The notes under the pieces are model-generated. The model did not search any database, was not told the origin of the DNA, and saw only the letters and a program-made list of their open reading frames with translations. From an uncultured Sphingomonadales bacterium (lineage in GTDB: Bacteria > Pseudomonadota > Alphaproteobacteria > Sphingomonadales > Sphingomonadaceae), in assembly GCA_937870585.1 (NCBI GenBank), contig CALMZE010000176.1:1-41574 (forward strand): a stretch of DNA of 41,574 nucleotides, read 5' to 3'. Made by a program: the position numbers and the translations under genes. This document shows positions 2,614 through 15,375 of the stretch, one piece after another (within the stretch, counting starts at the first letter, position 1; each line of letters opens with the position of its first letter).

Positions 2614-3309
2614 ATGTCCTGGACGGAAGAACGGATCGAGAAGCTGAAGGATCTCTGGAGCAAGGGGATGACCGCCAGCCAGATTGCCGAAGAATTGGGC
2701 GGCGTGAGCCGTAACGCGGTGATCGGCAAGGCGCACCGGCTTGACCTCCAGTCACGTCCTTCCCCCGTGAAGGGCGGCGATGGCGAGCCTGCGGCCAAGC
2801 CCGAGCCGCGCAAGGCCGCACCACGCACCGCGCCCAAGGCTGCGCCAACTCCGCCTGCTGCGCCTCCCCCCCCACCGGTTCAGGCCAAGACTCCGCCGCC
2901 GCCGCCCGCTGTGGACGCTGAAGTCAATGCAGCCATGCCGCTGCCCAACCGTGCCGGTGCCGCGTCTGGCAATACCAGCTTTCGTTCGATTGGTCCGGGT
3001 GGCTTCGTCCGCCAGTCCCCCGGTGAGCAGAGTGCGCCCTCCACACCCGCACCGCCGCGCCGTCTGGTTCCGGCCAAGCCAAGCGCCGAGATTGCGGGTA
3101 AAACCAGCCTGCTCGATCTGAATGACCGCATCTGCAAATGGCCGCTGGGTCATCCGGGCGAACCCGATTTCCATTTTTGCGGCGATCCGGTGAACCCTGG
3201 CTTCCCCTATTGCGTGGCGCATTGTGGTCAGGCGTTCCAGGCACAGATGCCACGCCGCGACCGCCGCCCGCCGCCGCCGATGCCGTTCGGCGGCCCGCGC
3301 GTCCGCTAA
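2614..3309 (+). CDS. gcrA: GcrA-family cell cycle regulator
   Basis: This 231-residue protein begins with the invariant GcrA N-terminus MSWTEERIEKLKDLWSKG and an HTH (SASQIAEELGG-like, then VSRNAVIGKAHRL). A long Pro/Ala-rich linker (about residues 55-160) follows, then the C-terminal sigma70-contacting region with Cys/His-rich CKWPLGHPGEPDFHFCG and YCVAHC. In Caulobacter, GcrA binds sigma70 and activates promoters carrying CcrM-methylated GANTC sites. The protein is longer than Caulobacter GcrA (about 173 aa) because of the linker. It is monocistronic and divergent from the permease gene. The assignment rests on directly visible motifs. Confidence 0.95.
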   Translation: MSWTEERIEKLKDLWSKGMTASQIAEELGGVSRNAVIGKAHRLDLQSRPSPVKGGDGEPAAKPEPRKAAPRTAPKAAPTPPAAPPPPPVQAKTPPPPPAVDAEVNAAMPLPNRAGAASGNTSFRSIGPGGFVRQSPGEQSAPSTPAPPRRLVPAKPSAEIAGKTSLLDLNDRICKWPLGHPGEPDFHFCGDPVNPGFPYCVAHCGQAFQAQMPRRDRRPPPPMPFGGPRVR

Positions 3310-3366
3310 GGCGAACTGGCAGGCGCATTTCATGCGCCTTGCCCGTCCAGAGCGATGTCATAGAGT

Positions 3367-3390
3367 TTCCTCCTCATGAGTGAGGAGGAA
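3367..3390 (+). promoter_or_regulatory. Perfect 10-bp hairpin containing a Shine-Dalgarno sequence
   Basis: TTCCTCCTCA (3367-3376) pairs exactly with TGAGGAGGAA (3381-3390) around a TGAG loop. The right arm contains AGGAGG (3383-3388), nine bases before an ATG at 3398. No T-run follows on either strand, so it is not a classical terminator. It could end gcrA transcripts, or mask the ribosome site of a downstream micro-ORF. Confidence 0.55.
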
Positions 3391-3397
3391 GGATGCC

Positions 3398-3469
3398 ATG
3401 CGCCATGAGCTTGTTCTGGCCACCATGCGACGGCGTCTATCCTGTAAAGGCAAATGCCGTGGCCACTGA
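3398..3469 (+). CDS. Possible 23-residue micro-protein (MRHELVLATM...)
   Basis: This short open frame begins with ATG nine bases after a perfect AGGAGG and ends at TGA 3467-3469. The peptide is basic (eight Arg/Lys) with two Cys spaced CKGKC. Its ribosome site is buried in the hairpin at 3367-3390. I do not recognise the peptide. Chance is a real alternative at this length, and an ATG at 3393 in another frame also sits near the same Shine-Dalgarno. Conservation of the hairpin-peptide pair across related genomes would decide. Confidence 0.3.
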   Translation: MRHELVLATMRRRLSCKGKCRGH

Positions 3470-3563
3470 CGCACGATCCGAAACGCCCATCTGCGTCGGC
3501 GCGAAAACGACGCGCGCCAGCCTCGTCGCGAATCTCACGCTCGGGAGCTCGGGGAAGAAGGAT

Positions 3564-3638
3564 TGGCTGGGGCGGCAGGATTCGAACCTGCGAATGGCGG
3601 CACCAAAAGCCGCTGCCTTACCACTTGGCGACGCCCCA
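3564..3638 (-). tRNA. tRNA-Gln (anticodon TTG)
   Basis: Read on the minus strand, the 75-nt gene has a 7-bp acceptor stem (TGGGGCG with CGCCCCA), a D-loop with AAGTGGTAAGGC, an anticodon stem GCGGC/GCCGC enclosing TTTTGGT with anticodon TTG, a T-arm containing GGTTCGAATCC, discriminator G and an encoded CCA. The U1-A72 first pair is typical of tRNA-Gln. It lies alone between gcrA and purC and is antisense to a spurious plus-strand frame. Confidence 0.97.
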
Positions 3639-3824
3639 TCACTGCGCATCAGCGCGATGAAGGGGGCGCTTTAGCGGGCGAAGGGCCGGAGCGGAAGGGG
3701 GAAATTTGCTCCGCGTTGCGAAGCGGGCGGCTTTGCGCTAAAGGCCGCGCAAACGCCCCGGATGCCCGCTCGACTCCAGCGACGCCTCCGGGGCTTCACT
3801 CTTTGATGCACGTCAGGAAAAAGC

Positions 3825-4604
3825 ATGACCCGTCGCCGCATGATCTACGAAGGCAAGGCCAAGATCCTTTATGAAGGCCCGGAGCCCGGCACGATCATCC
3901 AGTATTTCAAGGATGATGCGACCGCCTTCAACGCCCAGAAAAAGGGCACGATCAACGGCAAGGGCGTGATCAACAACCGCATTTCGGAGCATGTCTTCAC
4001 GCTGCTCGGCAATATCGGCATCCCCACGCACTTCATCAAGCGGCTCAACATGCGTGAGCAGCTGGTGCGGCAGGTGGAAATCGTGCCGATCGAGGTGGTG
4101 GTGCGCAATGTCGCGGCGGGCTCGCTCTCCAAGCGCTATGGCATTGAAGAAGGCACACCGCTGCAACGCACTATCCTTGAATATTATTACAAGGATGACG
4201 CGCTGGGCGATCCGCTGATCACCGAAGAGCATATCGCCTGTTTCGGCTGGGCCGGGCAGGACGAGCTGCACGACATTGCGGACATGGCGATCCGCGTGAA
4301 TGATTTCATGAGCGGCATGTTCGCCGCCGTCGGCATCCGTCTGGTCGATTTCAAGCTGGAATTTGGCCGCGTGTGGGAGAATGATTTCAGCCGGATCATC
4401 CTCGCCGATGAAATCAGCCCGGATGGCTGCCGCCTGTGGGACATGGCGACGAACGAAAAGCTCGATAAGGACCGGTTCCGCCGCGACATGGGTGGCGAAG
4501 TGGAAGCCTATCAGGAAGTCGCCCGTCGCTTCGGCCTGCTGCCGGAGACCGAGGGCGCGACGGTGCTGGATATGCAGAGCCATCGGGGCAAGCTGGATAG
4601 CTGA
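3825..4604 (+). CDS. purC: Phosphoribosylaminoimidazole-succinocarboxamide synthase (SAICAR synthetase)
   Basis: This 259-residue enzyme of de novo purine synthesis joins aspartate to CAIR using ATP to give SAICAR. Directly visible signatures are the N-terminal [11 protein letters not shown] nucleotide loop, [15 protein letters not shown], the [19 protein letters not shown] motif (residues 88-105) and DFKLEFGR (about 176-183) with the following [12 protein letters not shown]. Full family length. The start ATG at 3825 has a GGAAA Shine-Dalgarno seven bases upstream. It stands alone; no other pur gene is adjacent. An 8-bp GC inverted repeat (3755-3762/3787-3794) precedes it. Confidence 0.97.
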
Positions 4605-11553: not shown

Positions 11554-12000
11554 ATGACGAAGGCCGAAACCACCATCGGCAAGGCGGCGCGTGCCCAGTT
11601 TCTGGCGCATCTGGCTGAAACTTCGAATGTTGCGGCATCGGCGCGCGCAGCCGGGCTTTCACCGTCGCGTGCCTATCGCGAGCGGCAGCGTTTCCCCGCC
11701 TTCCGCGCGCAATGGCAGGAGGCTCTGGCTGAAGGCTATGCCCGGCTGGAAGCCGAATTGCTGGCTGAGGCTCTGCGCCCGGCAAGCGGCAATCTGAAGG
11801 ACATCACGCTCAAATCCCGCCAGATGAAGGTGCGGCTGGGGATGACCTTGCTCTCACTCCACCGCGCTTCGGTGCGCGGGGTGAAGCCCGCAACGCCCCC
11901 GGCCCCGCGCCGCACGCGCGCCGAAATCCAGCAGGATTGGGAAGCCGGCCTTGATGCCATGAAAGTCCGGATGAGTGCCGATGACAGCACCGCAGAGTGA
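11554..12000 (+). CDS. GTA g1-like protein, putative small terminase subunit
   Basis: This 148-residue protein begins with a helix-turn-helix-like region: FLAHLAETSNVAASARAAGL then SPSRAYRERQRFPAFRAQW, a pattern typical of small-terminase DNA-binding domains in GTA-like clusters. A helical stretch rich in Ala/Glu/Leu follows, and a basic C-terminus with TPPAPRRTRAEI. In RcGTA, g1 encodes the TerS-like protein that works with TerL in DNA packaging, apparently with little sequence specificity. The ATG at 11554 begins the conserved part. Its 3' end overlaps the terL start by 20-26 bases. The function is inferred from position and HTH pattern. Confidence 0.78.
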   Translation: MTKAETTIGKAARAQFLAHLAETSNVAASARAAGLSPSRAYRERQRFPAFRAQWQEALAEGYARLEAELLAEALRPASGNLKDITLKSRQMKVRLGMTLLSLHRASVRGVKPATPPAPRRTRAEIQQDWEAGLDAMKVRMSADDSTAE

Positions 12001-13288
12001 GGCCGAGCGGCTGGCCTTTGCCGCGCCTGATGAGCGCGCCGCCTGGTTCAAGGCCTATAAGCATCCAGACCGGATCGCGCATGACTGGACCTATTGGCGG
12101 CGCGCTGCGCAGGTGCCGCCCGCAGGGGACTGGCGCGGCTGGTTCATCATGGCCGGGCGCGGCTTTGGCAAGACGCGTATGGCCGCCGAATGGGTGCGCA
12201 GCGTGGCCGAACAGGATGGAGAGGCCCGCATCGCTCTGGTCGCCGCCACGCTGCACGAGGCGCGCACGATCATGGTGGAAGGCGAAAGCGGGCTGCTCGC
12301 CATTGCTCCGCCCCAGTGCAGGCCGGTTTACGAACCCTCGTTGCGGCGGCTCAGCTGGCCGGGTGGCGCACAGGCGACGCTCTATTCGGCGAGCGAGCCC
12401 AACAGCCTGCGCGGTCCTACGCACAGCCATGGCTGGGCAGACGAAATCGCCAAATGGGAGAATGGGCCGGCAAGCTGGGACAATCTGGCGATGACGTTGC
12501 GACTGGGCAAGGCCCCGCAGATCGTCGCCACAACAACGCCACGCCCGGTGCCACTGGTGCGTCGCCTGCTTGCTGAACCCGGCTTTGTGCTGACGCGCGG
12601 CACGACTGCCGACAACCGCGCCAATCTGCCGCCCGCCTTTCTGGGTGCGATGGAGCGCATCTATGCGGGCACACGGCTGGGGCGGCAGGAACTGGCAGGG
12701 GAGTTGCTGGACGATGTGGAGGGCGCGCTCTGGAGCCGCGATCTGATCGAATGCTGCCGTGCAGACACTGCGCCCGCGCTCAGCCGCGTGGTGATCGGGG
12801 TCGATCCGCCTGCGAGTGCTGCGGGAGACGCGTGCGGAATCATAGTGGTCGGGTTCGATGCTCATAGCCATGCCTGGGTGCTCGCTGACGCCAGCGTGCG
12901 CGGCAAAAGCCCCGAAGGCTGGGCCCGCGCGGTCTCAAACGCGGCCACCCGCTGGCAAGCCGATCGCGTGATCGCAGAGGCCAATCAGGGCGGAGACATG
13001 GTGGCCGCCACACTGCGCGCGGCAGACGTCGCCCTGCCCGTCCGCCTCGTCCATGCCTCACGCGGGAAGGTCGCACGGGCAGAACCAGTGGCCGCGCTCT
13101 ACGAAACCGCCCGCGTCCACCATGTCGGCGCCTTCCCGGATCTGGAAGACGAACTGTGCGGCCTGATGACCGGCGGCGGCTATGAAGGCCCCGGCCGCAG
13201 CCCGGACCGCGCGGACGCGCTCGTGTGGGCGGTGACGGAGGGGGTGTTGGGACGGAGACAAGCGATGGCACGCATCACTCTTGCATAA
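11981..13288 (+). CDS. Terminase large subunit (GTA g2)
   Basis: The 435-residue packaging motor has a Walker A GRGFGKT near residue 60, a Walker B acidic pair in WADEIAKW near 152, and a C-terminal RuvC-like nuclease with IGVDPPAS near 272, IAEANQGGDMV near 330 and DRADALVWA near 409. All key residues look intact, so it is not a decayed remnant. A GTG at 11975 would add two residues; ATG at 11981 is chosen. Both overlap the g1 gene. Normally portal follows directly; here an AT-rich stretch with three small genes intervenes. Confidence 0.95.
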   Translation: MTAPQSEAERLAFAAPDERAAWFKAYKHPDRIAHDWTYWRRAAQVPPAGDWRGWFIMAGRGFGKTRMAAEWVRSVAEQDGEARIALVAATLHEARTIMVEGESGLLAIAPPQCRPVYEPSLRRLSWPGGAQATLYSASEPNSLRGPTHSHGWADEIAKWENGPASWDNLAMTLRLGKAPQIVATTTPRPVPLVRRLLAEPGFVLTRGTTADNRANLPPAFLGAMERIYAGTRLGRQELAGELLDDVEGALWSRDLIECCRADTAPALSRVVIGVDPPASAAGDACGIIVVGFDAHSHAWVLADASVRGKSPEGWARAVSNAATRWQADRVIAEANQGGDMVAATLRAADVALPVRLVHASRGKVARAEPVAALYETARVHHVGAFPDLEDELCGLMTGGGYEGPGRSPDRADALVWAVTEGVLGRRQAMARITLA

Positions 13289-13370
13289 TAGGTTTTATCC
13301 TATACGCGCTCAGATTTCCAAAACATTTCTCCATATTGGTTCAAATATTAAGAAATTCTTGGATAAACAT

Positions 13371-13423
13371 TTCAATCGCTGCGCCCGATATGCTCAATGA
13401 GCATATCGGGCGCAGCGATTGAA
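13371..13423. repeat. Near-perfect 53-bp palindrome downstream of terL
   Basis: Two 26-nt arms, 13371-13396 and 13398-13423, are exactly inverted around a single A at 13397. The arms start TTCAATCGCTGCGCCCGATA and continue to TGCTCA. They are GC-rich inside an otherwise AT-rich intergenic segment. There is no T-run next to it on either strand. It could fold as a cruciform or as a very stable RNA hairpin between terL and the downstream small-gene operon. Confidence 0.97.
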
Positions 13424-13512
13424 GTCAAACGGAATATTTCATATAACGTTAAGAGACAGATTGCTATTTCCCGATCAAGATTAATTTTTAGCTCGGAAAG
13501 GAGGTTTCAACA

Positions 13513-13719
13513 ATGGCAGTTTACTCAAACACATTCGGAGGCCTCCGGCTCACGGGTGACGATGCTCGGAAGTTCCGAAACCAGACGACATATGGTCGGC
13601 CTGGCAAGGGAGCCCAAGAGGCGGCCCGGAGAGGAAATGGGCTTGCAGCTAGCCTGCTTCGTGACGGGTTTGTTAAAGTTCGCATTCCCTTCGGAACCAG
13701 TCAAGGAGCCTCCGCATGA
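13513..13719 (+). CDS. Unknown 68-residue basic protein preceding HicB/HicA
   Basis: The ATG follows a perfect AAGGAGGT Shine-Dalgarno (13497-13504) by eight bases, the strongest ribosome site in the region, so real translation is likely. The protein is basic and glycine-rich (FGGLRLTGDDARKFRNQ, YGRPGKGAQEAARRGN) with a short C-terminal strand GFVKVRIPFG. I do not recognise a family. Its TGA overlaps the ATG of the HicB-like gene (ATGA), so the genes are translationally coupled and it may be part of the module. Base composition is lower in GC than that of the flanking head genes. Confidence 0.7.
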   Translation: MAVYSNTFGGLRLTGDDARKFRNQTTYGRPGKGAQEAARRGNGLAASLLRDGFVKVRIPFGTSQGASA

Positions 13720-14018
13720 ACTCCGTAGTCTGTTTTGCACATGGCCAAGACGGTCAATGGGAAGCTCTCTGCGTGGATTTTGACATTGCAGTTCATGGAC
13801 GCAGCTTCGAAGAAGTGCAAAAAGCTTTGAATGAAGCGATATGGACATACGTTGAAGATGCTGAAAAGGAATCTCCTTCAGTCCGCAAGGCATTGCTCAA
13901 CAGGCGTTCGCCTTGGCATGTCCGGTTTCTGCTGACGACTCGTCTCGCCTTTTACAATTTTTTCCATGGACGGAGAGGACTGGATCAGGCTAGTTTCCCC
14001 GTCTTATGCCACGTCTGA
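13716..14018 (+). CDS. HicB-like antitoxin
   Basis: The 100-residue protein begins with the HicB RNase H-like fold: VVCFAHGQDGQWEALCVDFD, then IAVHGRSFEEVQKALNEAI and a helix TYVEDAEKES. HicB antitoxins bind and block HicA and often repress their own operon through a C-terminal DNA-binding domain; here the C-terminus (LLTTRLAFYNFFHGRRG) shows no clear HTH or ribbon-helix-helix. The AAGGAG at 13703-13708 and ATGA overlap with the preceding gene show coupling. The 3' end overlaps the HicA-like gene by 13 bases. Antitoxin-first order is known but less usual. Confidence 0.78.
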   Translation: MNSVVCFAHGQDGQWEALCVDFDIAVHGRSFEEVQKALNEAIWTYVEDAEKESPSVRKALLNRRSPWHVRFLLTTRLAFYNFFHGRRGLDQASFPVLCHV

Positions 14019-14233
14019 TTTGCACATCCGCCGATTTTATTCAAATACTCGAATCCAACGGATTTTCACAAATTCGGCAAGAGAGCAGCCACAGGCGCTT
14101 TAGGGCGAACATTAATGGTAACGTCTTCTTTGTCACGGTTGCATATCACAACGTAAATGATCCCATTCCTATTGGCACGTTGAATTCGATGATCCGCCAA
14201 TCCGGGCTTAGCAAGAAACTGTTTCTGAAATAG
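14006..14233 (+). CDS. HicA-like toxin (mRNA interferase family)
   Basis: This 75-residue protein has the double-stranded-RNA-binding-like HicA fold: FIQILESNGFSQIRQESSHR with the catalytic His29 in SSHRRF, followed by a strand VFFVTVAYH and the typical IPIGTLNSMIRQSGL helix. HicA toxins cleave mRNA and arrest growth until bound by HicB. All expected features are intact. It overlaps the HicB-like gene and ends 38 bases before the portal start, so transcription from this module would run into the portal and capsid genes. Confidence 0.85.
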   Translation: MPRLICTSADFIQILESNGFSQIRQESSHRRFRANINGNVFFVTVAYHNVNDPIPIGTLNSMIRQSGLSKKLFLK

Positions 14234-14271
14234 TCTTACTCAAACAAGACGAACAAGGAACCCCAAAACCC

Positions 14272-15375
14272 ATGAAACTCTTCGGCTGGAAATCGGCCGG
14301 GCGTGCTGCTGTGCGCCCGGCCAAAACGCATGTCTCGCTTGCGCGCGGCGTCGGTGGGGCGCTCTTTGGGGCGTGGCCGCGATCTTATGAAGCGCAGGTG
14401 CGGGAGGGGTATCTCTCCAACGCCATTGCCCAGCGCGCGGTGCGGCTGGTGGCGGAAGGCGTGGCGTCCGCCCCGGTCTTGGCCTCTCATCCGGAAGCCG
14501 GTGCGCTGATTGCCGCCACGTCGGGCGGGCAGGCGCTGATGGAAACGCTCGCCACGCAGCTTTTGCTCCACGGCAATGGCTATGTGCAGTTGCTCGCCAC
14601 GGCTGAGGCCGCGCTGGGCGAGCTGTTTGCGCTCCGCCCCGAACGCATAGCGGTGGAAGCGGATGCGCAGGGCTGGCCTGCTGCGTTTCGGTACCAGGTT
14701 GGTGAACGTGTGACGCACCTTGCGGCCAATGAGGTGATCCACATCCGAACCCATCACCCGCTCGATGATCATTACGGGCTGGGGTGCCTTGGTGCCGCGT
14801 CTGGCGCGATTGCGATCCACAATGCGTCTGCCAAGTGGAACAAGGCGTTGCTCGACAATGCCGCCCGCCCCTCTGGCGCGCTGGTGCATGAAGCGTCTGA
14901 GGCCCTGACGGCGGACCAGTTCGAGCGGTTGAAAGAGGAGCTGGCAACCGGCTTTTCAGGCCATGACAATGCCGGGCGGCCGATGCTGCTGGAAGGCGGA
15001 CTGCGCTGGCAATCGCTGAGCCTGACACCCGCCGATATGGACTTTGCGGGACTGAAGGCCGCCGCCGCGCGTGAAATTGCGCTCGCCTTTGGCGTGCCGC
15101 CGGTGCTGCTCGGCCTGCCGGGTGACGCCACCTATGCCAATTACCGCGAGGCGAACAAGGCGCTGTGGCGTCAATCTATCCTGCCACTCGCGGACAAGAT
15201 CCTTACCGCGCTCGCCGAAGGGATGCGCCCCTGGTTTCCGGGGCTGACGCTTTCTGTTCAGGCTGACCGCTTGCCCGCTCTGTCCGAAGACCGCGAACGG
15301 CTCTGGGCGCAGGTGAGTGCCGCAGACTTTCTGACGCGCGAGGAAAAGCGCGCCATGCTGGGGATTAGTGCATGA
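14272..15375 (+). CDS. HK97-family portal protein (GTA g3)
   Basis: The 367-residue portal forms the dodecameric ring through which DNA enters and leaves the head and to which the terminase docks. Family landmarks are SNAIAQRAVRLVAEGVASAP near the N-terminus, LLLHGNGYVQLL (about 101-112), IHIRTHHPLDDHYGLG (about 158-173), GLKAAAAREIALAFGVPPVLLG and DATYANYREANKALWRQ. Length is near the GTA portal norm. ATG at 14272; the 3' end overlaps the next gene by four bases (ATGA). GC content returns to the host-like level from here. Confidence 0.95.
   Translation: MKLFGWKSAGRAAVRPAKTHVSLARGVGGALFGAWPRSYEAQVREGYLSNAIAQRAVRLVAEGVASAPVLASHPEAGALIAATSGGQALMETLATQLLLHGNGYVQLLATAEAALGELFALRPERIAVEADAQGWPAAFRYQVGERVTHLAANEVIHIRTHHPLDDHYGLGCLGAASGAIAIHNASAKWNKALLDNAARPSGALVHEASEALTADQFERLKEELATGFSGHDNAGRPMLLEGGLRWQSLSLTPADMDFAGLKAAAAREIALAFGVPPVLLGLPGDATYANYREANKALWRQSILPLADKILTALAEGMRPWFPGLTLSVQADRLPALSEDRERLWAQVSAADFLTREEKRAMLGISA

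Follow-up and report, generated by a model that had tools for sequence, protein, structure and literature searches.

A predicted phage-type HicBA toxin-antitoxin cassette, probably acquired horizontally, between the terL and portal genes of an RcGTA-like cluster

HicAB (HicBA) modules are type II toxin-antitoxin (TA) systems in which the active-site histidine is important in HicA and is masked by HicB, and HicB proteins without a DNA-binding domain are common (excerpts of PMC11594946). Defence islands often hold HicA genes (PMC10865869, in part), and HicB genes have been found in Moraxella prophages (PMC4619438, in part). In lambda-like phages of Mannheimia haemolytica, hicB and hicA lie between structural genes of the late operon, between a DUF4128 gene and the tape-measure gene, in an inducible prophage whose HicB belongs to the UPF0150 family (excerpts of PMC4553209). 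Phage WO of Wolbachia has a variable region between terminase/gpW and portal that may hold a RelE/ParE module; the element is a phage or a proposed Wolbachia GTA, and HicBA is not mentioned in the excerpts of PMC10299305 that describe it. GTAs are virus-derived elements unable to propagate themselves, as stated in abstracts of the field. The portions consulted of the open-licence GTA/RcGTA literature, which included parts of PMC10688885, PMC13236601, PMC9836097, PMC10883770, PMC11409702, PMC6899734 and PMC10299305, did not describe any TA module within such an RcGTA-like cluster.

The locus described here lies in a window (the whole stretch of DNA that was analysed) of 41,574 nucleotides from an uncultured Sphingomonadales bacterium, whose genome is a draft assembly of 233 contigs. 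With the HicAB system, as described in the excerpts of PMC11594946, it has in common a HicA-family protein, the catalytic histidine, overlapping genes and a neighbouring HicB whose N-terminal part shows the HicB-type pattern. It differs in having a HicB below Pfam and NCBIfam detection with an RRAPL C-terminal stretch, and an orphan gene (ORF1) on the 5' side. As in the Mannheimia phages and phage WO, the genes occupy a gap between structural genes, but the surrounding cluster is GTA-like, in contrast to the inducible prophage of Mannheimia and the Wolbachia element. Its families are terL, portal, DUF6127, prohead protease, HK97-type capsid, tail completion, tail tube, a tail-sheath/DUF2460 protein, Gp84_N/BR0599 and Rcc01698_C, in the gene set and order of the RcGTA-like clusters of Alphaproteobacteria, from which the window differs by its terL-portal cargo. 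By gene content we assign the cluster to the RcGTA-like type.

The terL gene, encoding the terminase large subunit (11975..13288, + strand; PF17289 E=6e-24, PF03237 E=2e-22), and the portal gene (14272..15375, + strand; PF04860 E=2e-70) are separated by 983 bp. The first-pass annotation had placed an AT-rich segment with three overlapping small genes at 13289..14271 of the + strand, and these coordinates proved exact, with the terL stop at 13288 and the portal start at 14272. The GC content of the segment was 0.47 compared to 0.65 upstream, and it was lowest on the two sides of a hairpin described below (0.30 and 0.35). The three successive frames, ORF1 (13513..13719, 68 aa), hicB (13716..14018, 100 aa) and hicA (14006..14233, 75 aa), were all intact and all on the + strand, as are the head genes. 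ORF1 overlaps hicB by ATGA and has a 7-base match to the Shine-Dalgarno consensus; it is likely translated and coupled to hicB, which has a 6-base match. No Shine-Dalgarno match was found for hicA, and its start within hicB fits translational coupling. A scan of 13000-14600 gave no intrinsic terminator, compared to a mean of 2.2 in shuffled sequences, so read-through from the module into portal, as suggested earlier, is possible. A target-site duplication was looked for and rejected, the single shared 8-mer lying away from the segment ends.

The third frame matched the HicA family PF07927 with E=1.2e-13 and 51.4 bits, well over the cut-off of 27, and the phage family phrog_353, named 'toxin', with E=6e-12; no match was found in NCBIfam. 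A PDB search with the HicA profile returned four chains at E values of 0.0006-0.0044, and three of these bear the name HicA. The histidine His29 in the motif SSHRRF, which the first-pass annotation had taken to be the intact HicA residue, fell, in an alignment of 22 rows, at a position where histidine is nearly invariant. Both the identity and the residue were thus borne out, and the frame is assigned to the HicA toxin family as a predicted mRNA interferase.

For the second frame, no HicB family of Pfam or NCBIfam was matched, whereas phrog_12841 was matched with E=1.2e-12. When a profile of 30 homologues was aligned with canonical HicB by hhalign, a score of 35.9 was obtained (E 1.5e-5, probability 80%) over 56 columns at 13% identity, with the HicB domain in the N-terminal half. 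The maximum of 100 column-shuffled controls was 18.1, and HicA and the reversed profile gave 10.3 and 11.6, respectively. The canonical set comprised 14 proteins, 13 from 17 PF15919 places (two under cut-off) and one from a second hicBA pair of the window genome (locus L055). At E<=0.1 none of the 30 homologues matched a family named HicB; two had a weak match (0.038) to DUF7387, which also matches a canonical HicB of the window genome, and one had a weak sigma-70 HTH match (0.036). No HTH, RHH or other DNA-binding domain was recognised in the window protein, and a conserved C-terminal stretch (RRAPL onward) stands where such an HTH or RHH domain would be. Nothing below E=0.99 was found in the PDB with the HicB profile. 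Of the clear HicB features claimed at first, the remote N-terminal homology held at profile-profile level and the clarity did not; the protein is best described, from its sequence, as a remote HicB variant without a recognised DNA-binding domain.

The neighbourhood of this HicB type was determined in 42 loci, namely 34 on GTDB contigs, collected with one peptide pattern, and 8 from IMG/VR, near-duplicates such as L070 and L214 included. A HicA, recognised by a profile built partly from the same loci, was found within 800 bp in 39 of them (sharing the strand of hicB in 22 and lying on the other strand in 17) and was not found within that distance in the other three. Members of phrog_12841 adjoin hicA in the window (13716-14018) and in loci L210, L214 and L215. 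This family, whose function is so far unknown, thereby gains a likely identity as a HicB-type antitoxin. The 17 opposite-strand loci (L061-L067, L069, L071, L073, L074, L076-L078, L080, L081 and L089) have hicB and hicA tail to tail, an arrangement unusual for toxin-antitoxin genes.

ORF1 matched no family in four libraries, Pfam, NCBIfam and phrog among them, and had no match at E<=0.001 in the 397 other genomes of the phylum sample. Neither plasmids, phages nor IMG/VR contained a match. Five weak matches were obtained in the class sample, and the three that were aligned resembled chance composition. A suspected kinship of ORF1 with a similar family was unsupported by the class, phylum and IMG/VR searches.

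Upstream of ORF1, a perfect inverted repeat with 26-bp arms and a 1-nt centre (13371..13423; strand not applicable) forms a predicted strong hairpin without a T-run, with a z-score of -8.2 for its context (13340-13530). In 1.04 Mb of fetched GTA-region loci there were 30 perfect repeats of at least 12 bp with a loop up to 12, the longest being 19 bp. No other copy within 3 mismatches was found in the window genome, no arm pair in 198 other genomes of the family, and none of it in IMG/VR. The half-site, allowing 2 mismatches, occurred once each in 11 of these 198 genomes, compared to 2 for the reversed control pattern. A search of Rfam was also made, and the candidate families were rejected, only microRNA hairpins being returned at values far below the gathering scores. 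The hairpin may be an insulator of the cassette from terL, an operator or a scar. A weak candidate promoter, TTGAAG-17-TATAAC (13419..13447, + strand), was seen by eye, its first hexamer overlapping the right arm of the hairpin; it was not reported by a promoter scan that requires T at the last position. A DNA-binding domain of HicB often autoregulates its operon. Because the HicB here has no such recognised domain, our reading of the promoter and hairpin is a guess.

The terL-portal junction could be determined in 7 of the 12 congeners, where it was 30-254 bp long and hicBA was absent. The window-type HicB was found in none of the 59 other relatives and in 11 of the 384 other genomes of the class sample. 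Identity to proteins of the same genus was 63-67% for terL and 70-74% for portal. By this comparison the 983-bp segment is read as an insertion relative to the congeners. The insertion proposed by the first-pass annotation was therefore upheld, and the shared ancestral hicBA that would have spoken against it was not found among the relatives compared.

The same annotation had assumed that terL and portal normally adjoin. This agreed with the congeners, none of the seven junctions exceeding 400 bp, but only in part with the other sets, in which such gaps occurred: 9 of 21 in other relatives, 10 of 44 in the class sample and 18 of 44 in IMG/VR. Overall, 37 of the 116 measured junctions were longer than 400 bp, the window being excluded. 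The gaps were taken from tblastn ends and are approximate. Loci were fetched for 29 of 43 relatives with terL and for 91 of 92 class places, and junctions were measurable in 44 of the 91 class-sample portal loci and 44 of the 57 IMG/VR loci. The congener, relative and class sets have no genome in common; IMG/VR may overlap with them in bacteria. With cargo at this place in many relatives, the junction can no longer be seen as an odd single event.

HicBA itself is, by these searches, a rare filling of a permissive site, since HicA and HicB profiles found no match in the 119 portal-bearing census loci that were fetched or in the 57 IMG/VR portal loci. In L090 (G071), a single-contig genome of the same family, a parD-parE pair with ATGA overlap was found exactly between terL and portal (3282-3862). 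The ParE matched with E=2e-12 and the antitoxin with 1e-6 and 1.5e-5, both under the cut-off; the toxin had no match in NCBIfam. This pair is a second TA type, unrelated to HicBA, at the terL-portal junction. Other junctions held NYN domains (L280, L305), GIY-YIG (L298, and by look L091, L302 and L314) and DUF2335 (L275). Matches under the cut-off were obtained for a PemK-like protein with a small upstream frame (L301) and for Abi_2 (L300), and the cargo of L303 and L308 matched nothing. A spermine-/spermidine-synthase-like protein was found in L290 (0.00014, just under the cut-off). By look, the same synthase-like gene was present in six more IMG/VR GTA-like contigs (L291, L292, L293, L295, L296 and L307). 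Seven loci from other families of the same order (L195, L197, L198, L199, L201, L202 and L205) carried in the terL-portal gap a conserved small secreted-looking protein on the opposite strand.

For 134 cargo representatives from 72 terL-portal and portal-capsid gaps, the 25 Pfam families listed (of 32) included a TA family, ParE, in the case of a single representative. PADLOC matched few of the representatives, with HEC-09 in 2 of the 134. As judged from these matches, the terL-portal junction takes varied cargo that is mostly not toxin-antitoxin. A broader proposal would be that the junction is a standing cargo site, comparable to accessory sites of phages, which was filled repeatedly and independently, with TA and nuclease genes (HicBA, ParDE, NYN, GIY-YIG, perhaps PemK-like and Abi-like) among the fillings, and that domesticated GTAs still harbour genes for guarding or defence, expressed along with those of the capsid. 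We rated this at first as somewhat unlikely and lowered it to plainly unlikely, because just one of the 134 representatives matched a TA family among those listed.

The window HicA grouped with three IMG/VR copies and with chromosomal copies of Alkalicaulis and Beijerinckia in a clade of 6 rows with support of 97/96. The Beijerinckia copy (L070) is also present in IMG/VR as L214, with an identical HicB. By path, the IMG/VR copy L210 was the closest to the window copy in the HicB tree, and no supported group contained the window HicB. The best match of the window HicB was 43% identical over 100 columns, and no close donor was found. No match to HicB was found in plasmids, and among phage records only phage Medea1 (2 records) matched, at 40% over 61% of HicB. 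In the viral contig L210, hicBA is flanked by genes for portal (phrog_156, E=8e-143) and for head scaffold (phrog_3927, E=2e-35), and in the viral contig L215 it adjoins a tail-assembly gene (phrog_778, E=6e-54). By gene order and family, phages too carry modules of this type, which can sit among their late structural genes, and there is therefore nothing GTA-specific about the module.

GTA-like head genes were found on the same contig in 2 of the 34 GTDB loci, L075 and L078, in both of which hicBA lies between portal and protease. The order in L075 was portal, a lipoprotein-like gene, a ZIP-like transporter, hicB, hicA, DUF6127, protease and capsid; that in L078 was terL, portal, hicB, opposite-strand hicA, DUF1330 and protease. 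The trees do not join these copies with that of the window, which suggests that the three were acquired separately. Two of 34 loci near a GTA portal is above chance in a post hoc calculation (P 0.0003 to 0.005) that takes genomes to be 3.5 Mb in size, draws on two short contigs and does not constitute proof. None of the 11 other genomes of the class sample with this HicB had it near a GTA portal; in the two with a portal match, the match was on another contig or about 0.8 Mb away. The L078 cluster may be decaying, since serine replaces the catalytic histidine in its HicA (3829-4044) and its protease frame aligns with no more than 55 of the 165 positions of the profile. Several cargo genes occupy one portal-DUF6127 gap in L075 (410-3500).

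A moron is an extra gene unit between structural genes, with atypical composition and its own promoter and terminator. The segment is a gene unit of atypical composition between conserved structural genes; for a promoter there is the candidate seen by eye, and on the side of termination the upstream hairpin without a T-run and no terminator in the scan. We consider it probable, from sequence comparisons, that the segment is a horizontally acquired phage-type HicBA cassette, or moron, in a permissive terL-portal junction of an RcGTA-like cluster. What the analysis shows is which genes are present and to which families they belong, that the segment is an insertion when congeners are the reference, and that HicA is kin to viral copies. 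Beyond this, the cassette would have a promoter of its own in the AT-rich, hairpin-bearing stretch, and ORF1, hicB and hicA would be translated together. The active-site histidine of HicA would be covered by HicB; if HicB fell under stress, upon phage shut-off or because the locus was lost, the freed HicA would cleave mRNA and growth would stop. Such a system would probably favour the cassette itself and make the cell more resistant to phages, with retention of the GTA cluster as a side effect.

Of the rival explanations, the strongest is that the cassette is a neutral passenger in a tolerant non-coding gap, with no function tied to the GTA and perhaps silent. The 37 other junctions above 400 bp, several with methyltransferase or secreted-looking genes and no evident GTA link, agree with it, as does the other hicBA pair of the window genome, which lies within a different gene pair. 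The three intact frames, the retained His29 and the good Shine-Dalgarno matches of ORF1 and hicB argue against a mere passenger, and we hold this explanation to be somewhat improbable beside the acquired phage-type cassette.

The first-pass annotation had suggested that the module might stabilise the cluster, link it to stress or protect producer cells. A module that serves the GTA is possible, in which the toxin would be co-transcribed with the head genes upon induction and would shut down host mRNA or arrest producers only, or in which addiction would guard the cluster. The strand shared with the head genes, the lack of a terminator found before portal, and the other TA and nuclease inserts (parDE in L090, NYN in L280 and L305, GIY-YIG in L298 and, under the cut-off, PemK-like in L301) are consistent with it. 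In Caulobacter, repressors of gafYZ, the GTA activator, also lower a HicA-like toxin, encoded at another locus (excerpts of PMC10688885). Such service is nevertheless quite unlikely: the module is absent from the measured congener junctions and is carried by phages, a strong hairpin stands between it and terL, several junction inserts are on the opposite strand, and of the 134 cargo representatives a single one had a TA family match, as judged from the 25 of 32 Pfam families listed. An assembly artefact or chimeric contig, which the 233 contigs and the unusual and unique 26-bp palindrome with its 1-nt centre might bring to mind, is very improbable given same-genus identity levels in both terL and portal, complete junction genes and parDE at the same position in the single-contig genome.

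From a phage-type TA module in the head operon and the varied cargo of the junction we infer that GTA clusters still join in the exchange of accessory genes. The terL-portal junction offers a concrete site at which to ask if cargo is expressed with the particles and if TA modules contribute to the retention of GTAs.

HicA genes were also present elsewhere. Four HicA places were found in the window genome, and PF07927 was matched in 12 of the 59 other relatives, where the smallest distance between a HicA and a terL match sharing its contig was about 310 kb (coordinates compared by eye). The second hicBA pair of the window genome, together with a 242-aa gene, is located in L055 (1915-4703, contig C168) between two genes that we take to be ruvA and ruvB, a conserved gene pair.
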